Source of the DNA: Deltaproteobacteria bacterium IMCC39524
GTDB lineage: Bacteria; Desulfobacterota; Desulfuromonadia; Desulfuromonadales; BM103
DNA: 64,000 bases
Direction: 5' to 3'
NCBI GenBank assembly: GCA_029667085.1
Contig: JARUHJ010000005.1
Span: forward strand, 124,001-188,000
Shown here: one piece after another, positions 28,790 to 38,836 of the stretch
How positions within the stretch are numbered: position 1 is the first letter of the stretch
Layout of the letters: each line of letters begins with the position of its first letter
Made by a program: the position numbers and the translations under genes
Notes under the pieces: model-generated
What the model saw: only the letters and a program-made list of their open reading frames with translations
What the model was told of the DNA's origin: nothing
The model's database searches: none

Positions 28790-31333
28790 ATGGATAAATT
28801 TCTCTCGGCAAGATCACAGGAAAAGCTCAGACAGGAAATTCTCGAGTCTGGCGGCAACGAAGTCTTCTGCATTGGCCAGACCGATACAGACCAACTTGTC
28901 GTGGAGGTGGAAATCCTGGCCCGCGGTAGCCGTGACGCAGTTCCAGCCATCCTCCAGACCTGTCGGCCGGGTGATGTGATCATCCACAATCACCCGAGCG
29001 GCCACCTGGAACCTTCCGAGCCGGACCTGGCAATCGCCGGAAACCTCGGCTCCATGGGGGTCGGCTTCTATATCGTCAACAACCAGGTCAGCAAGCTTTA
29101 CCGGGTCGTCGAAGCCTTCAAGCCAACCGAGAACGCAACCGTCGAACATCAGCAGGTTGCAGACATGCTCGGCCCCGGCGGACAGGTCTGCACCAGCCTC
29201 TCGGGGTTCGAAGATCGCCCCGAACAGATGCGCATGGCCTTCGCCGTCACAGAAGCCCTCAACAATCACAGCATTGCCCTGGTCGAAGCCGGTACCGGCA
29301 CGGGGAAAAGCCTGGCCTACCTGGTCCCGGCAATCCTCTGGACCCTTGCCAACCGCGAACGCCTGGTGGTCTCAACCAACACCATCAATCTGCAGGAGCA
29401 GCTGATCCGCAAAGACCTGCCTTTCCTGCAACGGGCCACCGGCCTCGATTTTCGGGTTGAACTGGTCAAAGGCCGCTCGAACTATCTCTGTAAACGCCGG
29501 CTGGAAAGTGCCACGGCTGAACCCGGCCTGTTTGATGATGAACACGTCGGTGAGCTGACATCCCTGCGAGAATGGGCCGAACAGACAGGAGATGGCTCAC
29601 GCGAGGACCTCTCCTTCTTGCCCCATGCCACGCTCTGGGATGAAGTCTGCTGCGAAGCAGACCAGTGCAGTCGCAGCCAGTGCCCCTTTTTTGGCAGCTG
29701 CTTTTTTCACCAGGCCCGGCGCAGGGCCTCTCGTGCCGACATCCTGGTGGTCAACCACGCGCTACTGCTCGCAGACCTTTCCTTGCGCCAGCAGACCGAC
29801 AACTACTCAGCGATGGCTGTGCTGCCGCCATTTTCCCGGTTAGTGATCGATGAAGCTCACCACCTCGAAGAAGTCGCCACGCGCTACTTCAGCACCCAGG
29901 TCACCCGCTTCGCCTTCGCCCGCACACTCAACAGGCTTCGACACCCGCGCAAACCACAGCGCGGACTGCTGCCACGACTCATTATCCAACTGGGAAGATC
30001 TTTGCAGGATGATCAGGATGCTCTCTACCGTGAACTGCATGAGCGCATAGAAGCTTTGATCGGCCAACGCCAGGAGCTGCTTGATCGCTCAATAGCAGAC
30101 CTGGAGCAGTCAGGGACAGTGCTGGCAAAAGAACTCGGCGCGGAGATTCGTTCAACAGAAGAGATTCGCCAACGACTGGTGCCGGCCTTTGTCGAAAAAG
30201 CGGCCTGGGAAAGAACCGAAGGCGTATTGCGCAGCCTGTCGCGCAGCACCAGTGAGTACAGTGAGTCGCTGCGAGAGCTTCTCAAGGCCTTACGCAAACT
30301 CCCTGATGAAGCGGCCGAGGCCTGCCGCTCACTCGGTACCGACCTGGTGGGCGTCAGTGTGCGACTGCAAGTGCTCGCCGACAACCTGCAGACCTTTGTC
30401 GCCAGAGACCCGGGGACCTGCACCTGGTTTGAAGTCACCAAAGGGCGCATAGGCCGGGGTGAAGGGATTATCACCCGGCTTTGCACCGCACCCCTGGTGG
30501 TCGCGCCTCTGTTGCGACAGACCCTGATGGAACGCATGCAGACCGTCGTCATGACCAGCGCGACCCTGACTGTGGCCGGTCGCTTTGACTACCTGCGCCA
30601 CCGGGTCGGCCTGAATGAGTTAGAGCCGGGCCGGCTGACGGAACTGCTCCTGGAGTCTCCTTTCGATTTCGAAAAACAAGCCTTGCTCGCGATCCCGACC
30701 GATATCCCCGAACCGGGTCGTCCCGGCTACGCTGAGGCCGTACGTGACCTGACTGAGCAGGCCTTGCTGGCAGCCGATGGGCGCAGCTTTGTGCTTTTTA
30801 CCGCCTACAGCCTTTTACGCCGCATTCACGGCGAGCTCTCGCCGACCCTGGCTGCCCGCGGCTACCAGGTCTTGCGCCAGGGGGAAACCACCCGGCACAA
30901 CCTGTTGCAGAAGTTCAGCAAAGACCCGACCAGTATCCTCTTTGCCACCGACTCCTTCTGGGAAGGGGTCGATGTGCCCGGCCGTTCACTTGAGCAGGTC
31001 ATCATTGCCCGTTTGCCTTTCCGGGTACCGACTGAGCCGGTTCTTGAAGCACGCGCCGAAGCCATCACCAAGGCAGGCGGAGATCCCTTCATGGAGTACA
31101 CGGTTCCGCAGGCTGTGATCCGCTTTCGTCAGGGCTTTGGCCGCCTGATCCGGCAGCGCACTGATCGTGGGGTGGTCCTGATTCTCGACAGCCGGGTCGT
31201 CAGACGTGGTTACGGCCGACTCTTCCTGCACTCTTTGCCTAATGTCCCCGTTTTAACCAAGCCTCAAAACGAGCTTACTGAAGCCATCAAGGAGTTCTTC
31301 AAGAGCACAGATCCGGGCGTTACAGAGGATTAA
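28790..31333 (+). CDS. JAB/RadC-like domain fused to DinG-type helicase
   Basis: An 847-residue fusion. Residues 1-110 form a JAB/RadC-like domain with the JAMM metal signature HNHPSGHLEPSEPD ('VIIHNHPSG…SMGVGFYIV'). The rest is an XPD/DinG-like SF2 5'-3' helicase: Walker A AGTGTGK (about 168-174), an Fe-S domain with Cys in 'NYLCKRR' and 'CCEADQCSRSQCPFFGSC', DEAH box 'VIDEAHHLEE' (about 353), then 'MTSATLT' and the C-terminal 'RQGFGRLIRQRTDRGVVLILDSRV'. DinG helicases unwind R-loops and repair intermediates. Four cysteines that could hold the Fe-S cluster are present. The fusion makes it unlike E. coli DinG. The ATG at 28790 follows a dispersed palindrome. Confidence 0.9.
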   Translation: MDKFLSARSQEKLRQEILESGGNEVFCIGQTDTDQLVVEVEILARGSRDAVPAILQTCRPGDVIIHNHPSGHLEPSEPDLAIAGNLGSMGVGFYIVNNQVSKLYRVVEAFKPTENATVEHQQVADMLGPGGQVCTSLSGFEDRPEQMRMAFAVTEALNNHSIALVEAGTGTGKSLAYLVPAILWTLANRERLVVSTNTINLQEQLIRKDLPFLQRATGLDFRVELVKGRSNYLCKRRLESATAEPGLFDDEHVGELTSLREWAEQTGDGSREDLSFLPHATLWDEVCCEADQCSRSQCPFFGSCFFHQARRRASRADILVVNHALLLADLSLRQQTDNYSAMAVLPPFSRLVIDEAHHLEEVATRYFSTQVTRFAFARTLNRLRHPRKPQRGLLPRLIIQLGRSLQDDQDALYRELHERIEALIGQRQELLDRSIADLEQSGTVLAKELGAEIRSTEEIRQRLVPAFVEKAAWERTEGVLRSLSRSTSEYSESLRELLKALRKLPDEAAEACRSLGTDLVGVSVRLQVLADNLQTFVARDPGTCTWFEVTKGRIGRGEGIITRLCTAPLVVAPLLRQTLMERMQTVVMTSATLTVAGRFDYLRHRVGLNELEPGRLTELLLESPFDFEKQALLAIPTDIPEPGRPGYAEAVRDLTEQALLAADGRSFVLFTAYSLLRRIHGELSPTLAARGYQVLRQGETTRHNLLQKFSKDPTSILFATDSFWEGVDVPGRSLEQVIIARLPFRVPTEPVLEARAEAITKAGGDPFMEYTVPQAVIRFRQGFGRLIRQRTDRGVVLILDSRVVRRGYGRLFLHSLPNVPVLTKPQNELTEAIKEFFKSTDPGVTED

Positions 31334-31359: not shown

Positions 31360-31365
31360 TTGACA
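31360..31365 (+). promoter_or_regulatory. Candidate -35 element for the alanine leader transcript
   Basis: A consensus TTGACA lies 55 bp before the leader ATG. A partner -10 is weak: GATAAC at 31381-31386 is 15 bp away. This is compatible with transcription starting shortly before 31395, giving a short leader RNA. Confidence 0.4.
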
Positions 31366-31420
31366 AAAAATATCAGCCATGATAACTGACGAGACTCATA
31401 ATTAAGCAACGGGGAAACAC

Positions 31421-31528
31421 ATGTTCAAAGCAACCAATATCACCGCAGCAATCAAGGCAGCGCGAGCGAATAACGCGGCTGCAGCGGCGGCCGCTTGCCA
31501 TGAACTTGTCCATTGCCTTGAAAACTGA
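31421..31528 (+). CDS. Alanine-rich leader peptide (35 aa)
   Basis: A 35-residue open frame too short for most gene callers. It has an ACGGGGAAACAC ribosome site before ATG and contains 13 Ala residues, seven of them in one run (codons 19-25, 31475-31495, using GCG, GCT, GCA and GCC), then CHELVHCLEN. Its last codons overlap an RNA segment able to pair with the 5' arm of a terminator 20 nt downstream. This is the layout of amino-acid biosynthesis leader peptides such as those of his, trp and leu operons, with alanine as the sensed residue. The next gene is an aminotransferase, which fits. The peptide itself probably has no function beyond translation. That it could be a small functional peptide cannot be excluded. 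Confidence 0.7.
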   Translation: MFKATNITAAIKAARANNAAAAAAACHELVHCLEN

Positions 31529-31575
31529 TTCAAACTCTTAATTGATCAAGGCCATGGGCAAACGCTCATGGCCTT
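31452..31575 (+). promoter_or_regulatory. Putative Ala-responsive transcription attenuator
   Basis: Four segments can pair in alternative ways. Segment 1 TCAAGGCA (31452-31459) pairs 8/8 with TGCCTTGA (31514-31521). Segment 2 TTGTCCATTGCCTTGA (31506-31521) pairs with segment 3 TCAAGGCCATGGGCAA (31546-31561) over 16 positions with one G-U and one mismatch (antiterminator). Segment 3 pairs instead with segment 4 in the terminator at 31548-31575. A ribosome delayed at the Ala codons would be expected to free segment 2 and prevent termination. Confidence 0.7.
31548..31575 (+). terminator. Attenuator terminator
   Basis: AAGGCCATGGGC (31548-31559) pairs with GCTCATGGCCTT (31564-31575) around AAAC, 12 bp with one G-U, followed by TTTATTT. 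It lies 20 nt after the leader peptide stop and 62 nt before the aminotransferase ATG. Confidence 0.9.
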
Positions 31576-31637
31576 TTTATTTACCCTGAAGCAGATAACC
31601 GCAGGCAGATTCAGGATTAACGGGAAGGGAAAAACTC

Positions 31638-32957
31638 ATGCGCAACAATATCGTTCATATCGGTGCCGGAGAGCTGACCTACGAGATCCGCGCTATCGTG
31701 GAGATCGCCGACAAACTCAGATCGCTCGGCATCAAAACCAACATGGAGAATATCGGCGACCCGATCGCCAAAGGCGAGATCATTCCCCAGTGGATGAAGC
31801 AGATCGTCGCAGATCTCGCCATGAAGGACTGCTCCTACGGATATTGTGCGACCAAGGGTGTGCTTGAAACCCGCGAGTTCCTTGCCGAGATGACCAACAG
31901 ACGCGGCAAAGCGCAGCTCACCCCAGATAACGTTATTTTCTTCAATGGTCTGGGTGACGCCATTCAGAAGGTTTACGGCCTGCTGCGCCGTGAGTCCCGC
32001 GTCATCGGGCCATCACCGACCTACTCCACGCATTCCTCCGGTGAAGCCGCCCATGCCGGACAGAAACCGATCTGTTATCGTCTTGACCCGGCCAACAGCT
32101 GGTTCCCAGACCTTGACGATCTGCGCCTGTCGATCAAATACAACCCGACCATTTCCGGCATTCTGATCATCAACCCGGACAATCCTACCGGCGCCGTCTG
32201 GCCCGAGCGGATCCTCAAGGAGATGGTGGCGATCGCCAAGGAATATGACCTCTTCATTATTGCCGACGAGATTTATCAGAACCTGGTTTACAACGGCCAG
32301 TCGACCAAGCCGATTTCCGACCTGATCGGCGATGTCCCAGCGATCTCAATGAAAGGGATCAGCAAGGAATTGCCCTGGCCCGGATCCCGTTGCGGTTGGA
32401 TCGAGGTCTACAATGCAGACAAGGACCCGATGTTCCAACGCTACATTCAGAGCATCGTCGACTCGAAGATGGTCGAAGTCTGCTCAACGACCTTGCCGCA
32501 GAAAGCCATTCCGCCCATTCTCAGCCATCCGGAATATCCCTCCTGGCTCGAGGAGCGGATCAGACGTTACGAGAAGTTCTCCAATATCGCTTATGAGATT
32601 CTCAATAAGGTTCCCGAGATCAAGGTCAACCGAACAAATGGTGCCTTCTACATGAGCGTCGCCTTCCAGGAGGGACAACTCAACGACAAGCAGACCCTGC
32701 CGATAGAACTTCCCGAGGTCCGCGAACTGGTCGAGAATCTCGTCAACCAGCCGGACGTGTCACCGGACAAACGCTTTGTTTATTACCTGCTGGCCTCGAC
32801 CGGGATCTGTGTTGTGCCCCTGTCTTCGTTCTTCACTCCGGAGCAAGGCTTTCGCATCACTTTGCTTGAACGTGACGAAGAGACCTTCACCCGTATCTTC
32901 GAGAACATCTCGGAAAACATCACGAAATACCTGAGATCAGCGAACAGAAGAAAATAA
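31638..32957 (+). CDS. Class I/II PLP-dependent aminotransferase (alanine-forming candidate)
   Basis: A 439-residue fold-type I aminotransferase. The substrate/cofactor signatures are present: 'DNPTGAVWPERIL' (Asn contacting PLP), 'DLFIIADEIYQNLVYNG' (Asp/Tyr), 'SMKGISKELPWPGSRCGWIE' with Lys in the PLP-lysine position and the Arg-Cys-Gly motif. Substrate cannot be read from sequence alone. The attenuator upstream with an alanine codon run suggests that it makes alanine (for example from pyruvate and glutamate or valine), by analogy with other attenuated operons. GGGAAGG lies 8-9 nt before the ATG. A strong terminator at 32964 ends the unit, so it is a single structural gene. Confidence 0.9.
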   Translation: MRNNIVHIGAGELTYEIRAIVEIADKLRSLGIKTNMENIGDPIAKGEIIPQWMKQIVADLAMKDCSYGYCATKGVLETREFLAEMTNRRGKAQLTPDNVIFFNGLGDAIQKVYGLLRRESRVIGPSPTYSTHSSGEAAHAGQKPICYRLDPANSWFPDLDDLRLSIKYNPTISGILIINPDNPTGAVWPERILKEMVAIAKEYDLFIIADEIYQNLVYNGQSTKPISDLIGDVPAISMKGISKELPWPGSRCGWIEVYNADKDPMFQRYIQSIVDSKMVEVCSTTLPQKAIPPILSHPEYPSWLEERIRRYEKFSNIAYEILNKVPEIKVNRTNGAFYMSVAFQEGQLNDKQTLPIELPEVRELVENLVNQPDVSPDKRFVYYLLASTGICVVPLSSFFTPEQGFRITLLERDEETFTRIFENISENITKYLRSANRRK

Positions 32958-32963
32958 ACAGAC

Positions 32964-32993
32964 AAAGGGCCGGCAATATAATGCCGGCCCTTT
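32964..32993 (+). terminator. Terminator of the aminotransferase gene
   Basis: A 12-bp perfect stem (AAAGGGCCGGCA / TGCCGGCCCTTT) with an ATATAA loop, starting 6 bp after the stop. The following T-tract is poor (GCTATAC). Confidence 0.75.
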
Positions 32994-33077
32994 GCTATAC
33001 TGAACTTAAACAACAGTTTTAATCTTTTTAGGGCTGCTCCAGTACCTGCACCTGCCACTCAAGCCCCCGGGACCTGC

Positions 33078-34493
33078 ATGCTCATTCCGAACAAAAACAA
33101 GCGTAACGAGCTGATTACTTCGCGCGATCAACTGATCAGCTTCCTTAGTGCCGGAGCCCGCCCTGAAAGCGATTGGGGCATTGGCGCCGAGATGGAAAAG
33201 CTGGTCCTTGATATCCACACCGGAGAAGCCGCAGAATTTCACAGGGTCGAAGCACTGCTCTCTGCCTTGGCAAAAAGCGGTGACTGGCAGGAGGTCCGTG
33301 AAGGCACAAGACTGATTGGCTTGCAGGGAGAACATTCCTCCATAACCCTCGAACCCGGCAGTCAGTTGGAACTTTCAGGGCAACTCTGTGCCGACCTCTT
33401 CTGTAACTGCAATGATTTTTCCAAGCATATCGTCAACGCCGTCGCCGCCTGTAACGATCTTGGCTTGATTCTGGTCGGATTGGGAGTTCAACCATTCACG
33501 CCCCTCGATAAAATTGAGTGGGCACCGAAATCCCGTTACGAGATCATGGGGCCCTACATGCTGAAGACTGGTGACATGGGTCAACGTATGATGAAGCAGA
33601 GCGCAGGACTCCAGGTTAACCTTGATTTCTGCGATGAAGCAGACTGCATGAGAAAGCTGCGCCTTGCCCAGGCGCTCTCGCCGCTTATCTACGGGCTGTT
33701 CGCCAACTCACCGCTCCTTGAGGGAGAAGCGAGCGGATTTTTGACCACACGGGGAGAAATCTGGTCCCGCACAGACCCGGACCGTACCGGCCTCTTGCCT
33801 TTCCTGGACAATCCCGGCGCAGGATTCAGTGATTATGTCGATTACGCTCTCGACGTGCCGATGTACTTTATTATGCGCGATGGCCAATATGTCGATCTGA
33901 CCCAACGACCTTTCTGCTTCCGCGAGTACCTTACGTCGGGTTACAAGGGCCATCAGGCAACCATGGCCGATTGGGACCTGCACCTGTCCACGCTCTTTAC
34001 CGAAGTCCGCCTGCGACCGCAGGTCGAAGTCCGCTGCGCCGACAGCCTGCCACCTCACCTGGTCCTGACCGTCGCCGCCCTGCTCAAAGGCCTGATGTAC
34101 GATGAAGACTCCTTCCAGAAAGCCTGGGAGCATTGTCGTCCCACCTCCTCTGCAGAGGTCACACAAACTTCCCGACAGGCATGGAAACTCGGGCTGAAGA
34201 CTCCCTGGAGAGAGGGAACCCTGCAGGACCTGGCACGGACCTGCCTGACACTCGCTCGTGACGGCCTCGACCGTCAGCAATCACGACGCTGCCAGGAACG
34301 CAGCGAGAGTTACTTCCTTAATGGCCTTGATAGCTTGATCGAAGGCGGCGTGACCCTCGCCGAACAACTCTTACAGAATTGGCACGGCAGTCGGCAGGAC
34401 AAGGTCAAAGCGTTGATTCAACATTGCGGCTTTTTCGACGTCGCCTCAAACCGCACGGACGCAAACTGCAGCAATGAGCAGTTCAAATCTTAA
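33078..34493 (+). CDS. gshA: Glutamate--cysteine ligase (GCS2/plant-type)
   Basis: This 471-residue protein resembles the plant/alphaproteobacterial type of gamma-glutamylcysteine synthetase, the first enzyme of glutathione (or of gamma-Glu-Cys thiol) synthesis. Visible family segments are 'DWGIGAEMEKLVLD' (Mg/ATP glutamates), 'GLQGEHSSITLEPGSQLELSG', 'RYEIMGPYMLKTGDMGQRMMKQSAGLQVNLDF' and 'LFTEVRLRPQVEVRCAD'. EgtA-like enzymes have a related fold, so a different gamma-glutamyl amide product is possible. No gshB lies beside it. The ATG at 33078 starts 85 bp after the aminotransferase terminator; no strong ribosome site is seen. It is followed by dispersed repeats. Confidence 0.88.
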   Translation: MLIPNKNKRNELITSRDQLISFLSAGARPESDWGIGAEMEKLVLDIHTGEAAEFHRVEALLSALAKSGDWQEVREGTRLIGLQGEHSSITLEPGSQLELSGQLCADLFCNCNDFSKHIVNAVAACNDLGLILVGLGVQPFTPLDKIEWAPKSRYEIMGPYMLKTGDMGQRMMKQSAGLQVNLDFCDEADCMRKLRLAQALSPLIYGLFANSPLLEGEASGFLTTRGEIWSRTDPDRTGLLPFLDNPGAGFSDYVDYALDVPMYFIMRDGQYVDLTQRPFCFREYLTSGYKGHQATMADWDLHLSTLFTEVRLRPQVEVRCADSLPPHLVLTVAALLKGLMYDEDSFQKAWEHCRPTSSAEVTQTSRQAWKLGLKTPWREGTLQDLARTCLTLARDGLDRQQSRRCQERSESYFLNGLDSLIEGGVTLAEQLLQNWHGSRQDKVKALIQHCGFFDVASNRTDANCSNEQFKS

Positions 34494-37018: not shown

Positions 37019-38836
37019 TCACGACTTCAGCACTTTCTTGTCCGACTGAATCAGCCCTTTAAGCTCATCAATCAACTCCCCAACCAAACCATACCCCTGT
37101 GCCCAGAAATCCGGATCCGCAAGATCAATCCCCAACGGCTTAACCAGAGCATCAGGCCTTACAGAACCACCGGCACGCAGGATCTTCATGTACGCAGGAA
37201 TAAAGCTAGCCCCTTCCGCACGGTATTTCTGATAGAGCGCAAGCACCAGGAGTTCACCAAAGACATAGGAATAGCAGTAGAAGCGAGCATGGATAAAATG
37301 GCTGATATAACTCCAACCCCAACGATACGAAGGGATCATCTCAACGTCATCGCCGAGCAGTTTGGCATTCTCGGCAAGCCACAGTTCACAGATCTCGTCA
37401 GCGGCCAGAAGGTCCTGTCCACGCCTGGTGTGTGCCGCCAACTCAAAACGGGTCAAGACCGTCTGGCGAAAGGTTGTGGCGATTATTTCTTCAATTTTTG
37501 TGCAGAGCAGGCTTATGCGGGTCTGCCGATCCGGTTCACCCTCCAACAGCGCACGGGTCAGTAGCATCTCGCCGAAGACACTTGCCGTCTCAGCCAGGGG
37601 CAAAGGTGCATGATAATGAAAAAAGTTCTGTTCTCCAGAGAGGACATAATGAACCGCATGCCCTAATTCATGGGCCAAAGTAGAGACATCACGGAGGGTG
37701 CCGGTGAAATTGAGAAGCACATAGGGATCAGCGCCGGGGTAGAGGCCCATGCAGAAGGCGCCACCTGACTTGCCGGAGCGGGGGGTGACATCGAGTTTGC
37801 CCTCGACGACCAGGCGTTCAACAATCTCAGCCATTTCTGGGGAAAAACCGCGAAAAGCATCAATCACCAGGTCAAGGGCTTCAGGAAACGTATATGTCCT
37901 GGGCTCTACCCCCACGGGAGCGTAGAGATCGGTGTTCTTCAGTTTGTCGAGCCCGAGCAAGCACCGCTTCAACTCAAAATATTCCTGGGCCAGCGAGTAG
38001 TGCGCTTCAGTCACGGTCAACATCTGCTCGACCATCTCCGGGTCAGTTTCACTGCTCAGGTGGGTTGGTGTCATCAGGTCAGGATAATGTCTCAGCTCTG
38101 CTTCCTTACCGTGATCAAGCAGCAGGTTGTTAAAGCAGCTGGTCAGCACCAGCGCATTGTCAGCATGCTTGGCGAGAAAGGTCGCAAATGCCGTTTCGCG
38201 AACCTGACGATCCGGGTGGTAAATCAGCGACAGCAACTCCTCGCCTGTGGCCTCGCGTTCTTCCGTTTCGCCTGGAAACCGATAAGCATAGGAAAAGCCG
38301 GAGGTCAGTTCATCAAAAAGCTGCACGAACGCCTCTTTGCCGGAGAGGTCCTTGCGTTTCAGGGCCTGCTCTACGGCTTCGCTCTGGGTATATGCAGCAT
38401 GAGCCCGGACCGTTGACAGGTAGTGAGCAAACGGGACAACTGCTGCATTTTCCAGGAGAGTTCTATACACATCCTCCTCAAGGGCGAGGATTTCCAATTC
38501 AAAAAAGAGCGTCAGTTCGTGAATCGCCTGCCAGGCTTCACGCACCCTTGCCACGAGAGAGGTATGTCCCGGGTTATCGCTCTCAGAATAGAAGAGGAGC
38601 TGTGCAAAAAGGTAGGGCTTGAGAACTAGAAGTTGCAGAGCCTCATATTCTTTTAAGGCCTGACTGAAGCTTGCAGGATTTATTTCCGGATGATCGATCC
38701 TGCCGTGGAAAGCGTCCCGGAACTGTTCTGCCTGTTGGTGAGCAGCACCCAGATCTGCTTGCAGCTTTTCATCATCGAGGTCGGCATAGAGTGAGGTGAG
38801 ATCCCAACGGATTTTATCTGGTGATATTTGTGACAT
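37019..38836 (-). CDS. pepF: M3-family oligoendopeptidase (PepF-like)
   Basis: A 605-residue zinc metallopeptidase of the M3B group that degrades oligopeptides in the cytoplasm. The HELGH motif (about residues 386-390, 'TLAHELGHAVHYVL') supplies two His ligands and the catalytic Glu, and 'ETASVFGEMLLTRALLEG' the third ligand. The N-terminal oligopeptidase_F-type helical domain is present ('WDLTSLYADLDDEKLQADL'). TGCTCCTTGG on the plus strand gives a CAAGGAGCA ribosome site before the ATG at 38836. It has its own unit between dispersed repeats. Peptide substrate unknown. Confidence 0.94.
   Translation of the reverse strand: MSQISPDKIRWDLTSLYADLDDEKLQADLGAAHQQAEQFRDAFHGRIDHPEINPASFSQALKEYEALQLLVLKPYLFAQLLFYSESDNPGHTSLVARVREAWQAIHELTLFFELEILALEEDVYRTLLENAAVVPFAHYLSTVRAHAAYTQSEAVEQALKRKDLSGKEAFVQLFDELTSGFSYAYRFPGETEEREATGEELLSLIYHPDRQVRETAFATFLAKHADNALVLTSCFNNLLLDHGKEAELRHYPDLMTPTHLSSETDPEMVEQMLTVTEAHYSLAQEYFELKRCLLGLDKLKNTDLYAPVGVEPRTYTFPEALDLVIDAFRGFSPEMAEIVERLVVEGKLDVTPRSGKSGGAFCMGLYPGADPYVLLNFTGTLRDVSTLAHELGHAVHYVLSGEQNFFHYHAPLPLAETASVFGEMLLTRALLEGEPDRQTRISLLCTKIEEIIATTFRQTVLTRFELAAHTRRGQDLLAADEICELWLAENAKLLGDDVEMIPSYRWGWSYISHFIHARFYCYSYVFGELLVLALYQKYRAEGASFIPAYMKILRAGGSVRPDALVKPLGIDLADPDFWAQGYGLVGELIDELKGLIQSDKKVLKS

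Follow-up and report, generated by a model that had tools for sequence, protein, structure and literature searches.

Ribosome-mediated attenuation is a classical mechanism, and leader attenuators normally control the pathway of the amino acid that they sense. Some attenuators have been described without an anti-antiterminator or pause hairpin. For alanine, Firmicutes have T-box riboswitches, which would likewise sense uncharged tRNA-Ala and control read-through. They differ from the leader described here in binding the tRNA directly and in having no leader peptide, and covariance models of Rfam gave no match of any kind at the gathering threshold in the window (the whole 64,000-nt stretch of DNA that was analysed). 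The original report on the whiB7/wblC uORF and alanine starvation is said to be that of Poulton et al. in 2024.

The trp, his, leu, ilv, phe and thr leaders of Enterobacteria, treated theoretically in PMC1183508, share with the present locus a short ORF in which codons for the product amino acid form a run, a terminator, and an antiterminator overlapping the ORF end. Unlike them, the locus has alanine codons, a single aminotransferase gene and no conserved 1:2 hairpin, and it belongs to the Desulfobacterota. A codon run for an amino acid outside the classical set is also found in the leader peptides of actinobacterial cys operons, for which no conserved terminator is reported (PMC1262725), whereas both terminator and antiterminator are kept among the present leaders. 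In bacilli, the His leader peptides that precede hisS/hisZ (PMC2965389) likewise carry a codon run in a new lineage and were discovered by a search for premature terminators, but they concern histidine, and the words ‘alanine’ and ‘aminotransferase’ are absent from the main text of that paper.

The nearest precedent found is the whiB7/wblC uORF of Actinobacteria, an indirect alanine response. According to three papers (PMC13236596, PMC13370626, PMC11550727), the mycobacterial whiB7 uORF answers alanine starvation via the transcription factor WhiB7, which is reported to act on the alanine biosynthesis gene aspC/alaA. As proposed here, stalling prevents a Rho-independent terminator and there is a tie to an alanine biosynthesis gene. 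The whiB7 uORF differs in that it answers antibiotics and controls a transcription factor that then activates the enzyme, whereas in the present case the enzyme gene immediately follows the attenuator, which contains a dedicated run of Ala codons. The ‘Ala codons’ of PMC8092293 concern alanine substitutions in mgtQ and not an alanine leader. An earlier note on this DNA knew of no described alanine leader peptide. This stands for dedicated ones, none of which was recognised in searches of an open-access library (most subscription papers fall outside this scope), and needs qualification for the indirect whiB7 uORF of the same three papers. New here would be the regulatory amino acid for a direct leader peptide, the gene and the lineage.

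The leader and its competing pairings

A 304-nt gap between the gene of a DinG/YoaA-type helicase (28790-31333; DinG/YoaA-like by profile match, with a score under curated cut-offs) and the aminotransferase gene (31638-32957) is the site of the leader. The features are as follows.

31360-31387, plus strand: promoter-like TTGACA ... (TG)ATAACT, read by eye, directly 5' of the leader
31411-31415, plus strand: Shine-Dalgarno-like GGGGA, a modest site by its sequence, before the leader ORF
31421-31528, plus strand: putative leader peptide ORF, 35 codons, MFKATNITAAIKAARANNAAAAAAACHELVHCLEN (ORF call; Ala-rich ORFs in relatives)
31452-31459, plus strand: segment 1, the anti-antiterminator strand of the earlier note, an exact complement of 31514-31521 (inverted repeat)
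31463-31479, plus strand: CGAGC-D-ANNANCGCGGC, a conserved motif of nucleotides common to leaders, where the Ala run begins
31475-31495, plus strand: seven consecutive Ala codons, the proposed regulatory codons (sequence; single (GCN)x7 place in the genome)
31506-31521, plus strand: segment 2, predicted 5' strand of the antiterminator, encoding the end of the leader peptide (fold, inverted repeat; kept in relatives)
31546-31561, plus strand: segment 3, predicted 3' strand of the antiterminator, overlapping the 5' arm of the terminator (fold, inverted repeat, comparative pairing)
31548-31582, plus strand: predicted intrinsic terminator, hairpin 31548-31575 and T-rich tail (scan, fold, comparative pairing)
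31638-32957, plus strand: presumed regulated gene, PLP aminotransferase PRK06855, probable alanine aminotransferase (NF005334, 749.9 bits)

The 35-codon frame, the run of seven Ala codons, the ribosome site and the terminator past the stop codon, all described in the earlier note, were confirmed. A short ORF with a probable ribosome binding site thus precedes the gene, as in an attenuator, and SD-like motifs, when scored, precede most leader ORFs of relatives. The seven-Ala run is not due to chance, because (GCN)x7 has one place in the 3.78-Mb genome, the leader, where the pattern matches on both strands; runs of six GCN triplets were counted 6 times on the forward strand, overlapping matches included. 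The promoter-like site was absent from the consensus scan output for the window. Among 27 upstream regions inspected, 19 have TTGAC[A/T] 225-291 nt before the gene, mostly followed by a GATAAC/GCTAAC-like box; the motif is not present at that distance in the other 8, which include all 5 inspected loci of group B (defined below).

The terminator-like hairpin at 31548-31575 has 12 pairs, a 4-nt loop and the tail TTTATTT, and begins 19 nt past the stop codon; its arms (31548-31559 and 31564-31575) are 92% complementary in an inverted-repeat search. As expected of an attenuator, this probable intrinsic terminator lies between ORF and gene, and it is predicted to be mutually exclusive with an antiterminator whose 5' strand stands at the ORF end (31506-31521 with 31546-31561; 16 nt, 88% complementary in the same search). 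Segment 1 (31452-31459) is complementary to 31514-31521 at 8/8 positions, and with it the search recovered all three pairings of the earlier note. Against 200 shuffles, the fold of the whole leader has a z of -3.61. That of 31500-31579 reaches -3.72 (-23.0 kcal/mol, as good in 0/200 shuffles) and that of the antiterminator part, 31500-31558, -2.84 (-15.5 kcal/mol, as good in 3/200). Compared with the leader itself, Rfam gave one chance-level match (E=8.2).

Distribution of the leader among orthologs

Orthologs of the aminotransferase were taken from a contig scan, with the best 80 of 236 kept, and from 58 related genomes, which yielded 30 loci. After removal of 3 partial loci, 5 that were too short and 14 duplicates, the 111 loci gave 89 distinct upstream regions. 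A small Ala-rich ORF (at least 4 Ala in 8 residues) lies upstream of the aminotransferase (PRK06855) in 63 of these. A strict leader, defined by at least 5 Ala in 8 residues, an SD and a terminator within 60 nt, was found in 54/89 regions, versus 1/328 upstream regions of other gene-like ORFs (180 codons or more) from the same loci.

On a tree of the enzyme built from 85 of the 89 rows, those under 350 residues being left out, the leader occurs in 42/43 rows of a Desulfuromonadales/Deferrisomatales branch and in 17/18 rows of a Desulfobacteria/Syntrophobacteria branch. It was found in 0/14 rows of a mostly Desulfobulbaceae branch and 0/9 Bacteroidota rows, and not in the sole Syntrophaceae row (L070). 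The presence of the leader requires 4 changes on this tree, against a mean of 22.6 for shuffled labels. Some rows labelled ‘Myxococcota’ are titled ‘Deltaproteobacteria bacterium’, which is taken as a taxonomy artefact. The earlier note had staked its proposal on conservation of the small ORF and the stems, and Ala-rich ORF, terminator and antiterminator do recur in the two large branches.

In a phylum-wide sample, 82/395 genomes have a homolog at E<=1e-100. A wider set was drawn from 40 of the 52 phylum-wide matches without a locus and from 16 stretches from related-genome matches; its 82 loci (L122-L203), less 6 duplicates and 1 short one, gave 75 further distinct upstream regions. At least 5 Ala in 8 residues were found in 30/75 and a strict leader in 24/75, while the 45/75 under that Ala threshold come mostly from more distant relatives. 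Within the same class but another order, 6/8 genomes have an Ala-rich ORF (L139, L143, L147, L156, L160 and L161), often shorter and with the core [A/V]RAxxAAA, and none was found in the other two (L150, L151).

Several loci vary in arrangement. At L010, L016 and L065 additional sequence separates the terminator from the gene, and the whole attenuator stands ~230-490 nt before it. In 14/17 loci of group B (L033, L036, L040, L041, L051, L054, L056-L058, L061, L062, L064-L066) the terminator scan shows two similar tandem terminators before the aminotransferase, and two are seen by eye at L055 and L060 as well. The leaderless L039, L044, L059 and L144 have, ~140-205 nt before the aminotransferase, an ORF ending in GGNKSEAARRLGITRKTLQNKLxKY, which by eye reads like the end of an NtrC-type regulator; control of the aminotransferase may differ in these relatives.

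Conservation of the terminator and the antiterminator

The loci with a leader fall into two groups. Group A comprises 46 loci, most often with the terminator arm AAGGCCATGGGC and a segment 2 reading GYCCRTNGCC; the 17 loci of group B typically combine the arm AGGGCTGCGGGC with a segment 2 similar to CCTGCGGTCCTG. The two large branches thus have different terminator arms, each together with an antiterminator strand that fits it. Complementarity of segment 2 with the terminator arm, summed over the 63 loci, is 1493, against 1040.7 +/- 22.6 (maximum 1112) in 300 dinucleotide shuffles. Locus by locus, an ungapped test gives p<0.05 at 16/17 loci of group B and 19/46 of group A, the 2:3 pairing not reaching this level at 27/46 group A loci. 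An RNA duplex test allowing internal loops gives p<0.05 at 14/17 and 16/46 loci, respectively; it is insensitive for group A, and the ungapped and folding tests were added. Swapping arms between groups weakens the pairing moderately (medians from -17.4 to -15.0 in A and from -23.1 to -18.3 in B), and a locus's own arm beats the median foreign arm in 32/46 loci of group A and 14/17 of group B. At L051, L053 and L062 the first terminator arm was located by motif for the pairing and folding tests.

Across 50 distinct aligned group A rows, 97.8% of terminator cells are paired, with 16 two-sided cells versus 3.9 in shuffles, above every one of 500 shuffles. The antiterminator is 72.9% paired in the same rows, compared with 29-43% when slid and 71.2% when shuffled (4/500 as high). 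Its extra pair types within group A are matched by 254/500 shuffles, and slid versions carry more two-sided cells at 3/6 offsets. Covariation of the 2:3 and 3:4 stems, which the earlier note had called for, is seen in two-sided changes of the terminator, but the antiterminator shows little of it within group A, where its columns vary too little. Support for the putative antiterminator thus comes chiefly from conservation, from the fit of each group to its own arm and from the group B loci, and less from covariation inside group A. A mismatch at the seventh position of the antiterminator recurs in 44/50 group A rows and may keep it weaker than the terminator.

Pairing of segments 1 and 2 behaves otherwise. 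The anti-antiterminator of the earlier note (31452:31514) is matched 8/8 in the window but is not conserved in most relatives: 1:2 pairing beats shuffles in only 9/46 loci of group A and 5/17 of group B, and among genes at least 85% identical only in L001-L004. Beyond the nearest relatives it was rejected as a conserved element. Neither an anti-antiterminator (1:2) nor a pause hairpin emerged as a feature of these leaders, and both were treated as optional. In general, the ‘off’ state more probably comes about when a ribosome that has reached the stop codon masks segment 2.

Alanine codons and the CGA motif

In ten leaders of 35 codons, from genes at least 90% identical, codons of the Ala run differ by 0.025, 0.050 and 0.158 per site at positions 1, 2 and 3. 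Leader Ala codons (n=665) comprise GCC 24%, GCG 33%, GCA 27% and GCT 15%, against GCC 60%, GCG 20%, GCA 9% and GCT 11% in the aminotransferase genes of the same loci (n=1882). This avoidance of GCC fits sensing through one isoacceptor, a reading that draws on the assignment of Ala isoacceptor tRNAs to codons, or could reflect avoided pairing with the GGCC arm. A selected (pause) hairpin inside the Ala run was rejected, Ala-codon shuffling giving a mean z of -0.07 (n=89 leaders).

The leader ORFs compared for a common core come from 97 of 164 regions, a few chance-like ORFs included (L131, L158, L171). Among the 72 leaders with an A-R-A-x-x-A core, 63 encode the Arg by CGA. Conservation near this codon seems to concern nucleotides and not residues (pattern CGA-GCN-ANN-ANC-GCN); many group B leaders, judged by eye, retain A as third base even where the residue is a different one. 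The pattern CGAGC-D-ANNANCGCGGC has one forward match in its own genome, the leader itself, and was dropped as a general attenuation element. Across 13 genomes it has 10 matches, of which 7 are at the leader, 1 is on a contig without the gene (G003) and 2 are elsewhere, away from the gene (L211, L212); 3/13 genomes have no match, and a reversed control pattern gives 0-2 matches per genome. When shortened, the pattern matches the window once more, at 37954. The CGA motif might be a place where RNA polymerase pauses, or a slow codon keeping ribosome and polymerase in step.

The aminotransferase behind the leader

The aminotransferase matches NF005334 (NCBIfam PRK06855) at 749.9 bits, over a cut-off of 443. 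The family names no substrate, and we know of no tested member of PRK06855. Against the alanine aminotransferase model NF006230 the enzyme scores 182.5 bits, under the cut-off of 534, and another aminotransferase of the genome (C7) outscores it (234 vs 181 bits, both under the cut-off). Among solved structures, the closest relatives of the leader-preceded enzyme are 1xi9, a putative transaminase by its listing, and the glutamate-pyruvate aminotransferase AlaA of E. coli (4cvq); the next match to it within the genome reaches 45.8 bits. The genome also has a gene for an alanine dehydrogenase, which scores above cut-off. Two genes of the genome were inspected by eye as positive controls for attenuation: no Ala leader is visible before the alanine dehydrogenase gene, and no Trp-codon leader before trpE. 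A role of the aminotransferase in alanine synthesis is suggested by its kinship to AlaA and by the leader itself. The Ala run is present and conserved; the match between codon and product rests on the kinship of the enzyme to AlaA.

Proposed mechanism

Read from its sequence, the leader is, with a probability of about 0.85, a ribosome-mediated transcription attenuator with alanine regulatory codons that senses Ala-tRNA. Most likely it lets the cell make the aminotransferase only when alanine runs short, an arrangement that recurs in many sediment bacteria. RNA polymerase would start ~30 nt upstream of the leader ORF, as judged from the promoter-like site. With plentiful Ala-tRNA, charged Ala-tRNA being the presumed signal, the ribosome would cross the Ala run and reach the stop codon (31526), where its footprint would cover segment 2 (31506-31521). 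Segments 3 and 4 would then form the terminator, and transcription would end before the aminotransferase. With uncharged Ala-tRNA, the ribosome would stall in the Ala run and leave free segment 2, which starts 11-13 nt past the last Ala codon. Segment 2 would capture segment 3, the terminator would not form in time, and the enzyme would be made, presumably forming alanine from pyruvate.

The placement of the stop codon is consistent with this direction of the switch. Between the last Ala codon of the densest window and the start of segment 2 the median distance is 13 nt (A) or 7 nt (B); between the end of segment 2 and the stop codon it is 6 nt (A) or 12 nt (B). The stop codon usually stands just past segment 2, which would thus be hidden under a ribosome completing the ORF and exposed when the ribosome stalls on Ala codons.

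A static folding model, made of equilibrium calculations with assumed ribosome footprints rather than kinetics, was applied to the window. For RNA ending at 31566, the antiterminator is predicted to form with a probability of 0.91-0.98 in all stalled states, and of 0.00 once the ribosome has come to the stop codon. At full length (31576), with no pairing across the ribosome, the antiterminator persists (0.97) when the ribosome is halted at Ala codons 9-22, but the terminator is favoured when it is halted at Ala codons 4 and 23-25 (0.89-0.97) or stands at the stop codon (0.98). When pairing across the ribosome is allowed at full length, the terminator wins in all states (0.67-0.98). Over the 63 loci, the probability that upstream RNA holds the terminator arm is 0.81 for a ribosome in mid-run; it is 0.56 when the upstream sequence is shuffled and 0.12 for a ribosome that stands at the stop codon. 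This holding exceeds the shuffle mean at 59/63 loci, with p<0.05 at 33/63; L071, L096, L098 and L110 are not above shuffled sequence.

Alternative explanations

Three alternatives place the signal elsewhere than in the charging of Ala-tRNA. The leader might be a general sensor of slow translation, like the ermC or whiB7 uORFs, in which any stall, whether caused by antibiotics or by lack of whatever amino acid, opens the gene and the Ala bias is secondary. The predicted folding logic does work for any stall before segment 2, and codons other than Ala are also common to the leaders, above all CGA for Arg (63/72 A-R-A-x-x-A cores). Yet Ala is retained in two large branches across which the remainder of the peptide varies, and the controlled gene is kin to alanine aminotransferases, which makes this explanation quite improbable. 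An Ala-rich nascent peptide that arrests the ribosome on a small molecule would account for the recurrence of the short core A-R-A-x-x-A-A-A over large distances. It is very improbable, however, as residues around the Ala run vary, the runs themselves vary in length, and the conservation of the core lies partly in third bases and in nucleotides whose residues differ. Such conservation at the nucleotide level, together with the one forward match in the genome, at the leader, would suit a riboregulator that binds RNA or protein via the conserved CGAGCUANNANCGC motif, with the ORF merely as carrier. That idea is hardly credible given that codons of the Ala run preserve their first two bases whereas the third one drifts, that the Ala run has no selected hairpin (mean z -0.07, n=89) and the leader no Rfam family match, and that the motif stands away from the gene in two relatives and is missing from 3/13 genomes.

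A further alternative accepts an alanine signal and concerns the enzyme, which might use alanine as amino donor or make another amino acid, the leader then reporting alanine for another purpose. The NCBIfam family has no named substrate, a second aminotransferase of the genome gets the better score with the model for alanine aminotransferase, and alanine dehydrogenase is encoded as well. Against these points stand the closest solved relatives, E. coli AlaA and the putative transaminase 1xi9, and the general rule that leader attenuators control the pathway making the sensed amino acid; we consider this alternative unlikely.

Implications

The preferred reading, an attenuator answering to Ala-tRNA, can be extended to a fuller picture to which we give slightly better than even odds. 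It would be a dedicated, alanine-specific leader-peptide attenuator directly before an alanine-forming enzyme. If inherited with the gene, it would already have existed before Desulfuromonadia parted from Desulfobacteria/Syntrophobacteria, and the strands of terminator and antiterminator would have been replaced together. The CGAGCUANNANCGC motif beside the Ala run would be a further working part, either an RNA polymerase pause site or a deliberately slow CGA codon.

If true, alanine would join the amino acids sensed by dedicated leader peptides, and alanine synthesis would be suggested as the function of a widespread unnamed aminotransferase family of metal- and sulfate-reducing bacteria. The two large branches would also constitute a natural experiment on attenuator evolution, because the layout is kept while both RNA strands differ between them. 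The avoidance of GCC in the leaders would make the isoacceptor-sensitivity theory of regulatory codons testable for alanine.

Downstream neighbourhood

A strong GC-rich hairpin (32962-32995) lies between the aminotransferase gene and the next gene. It was dropped as a candidate terminator of the aminotransferase, its T-rich tail being on the minus strand only. The product of the next gene (33078-34493) is a glutamate-cysteine ligase similar to those of the plant-type family, although its TIGR01436 score of 398 bits stays under the cut-off of 463.
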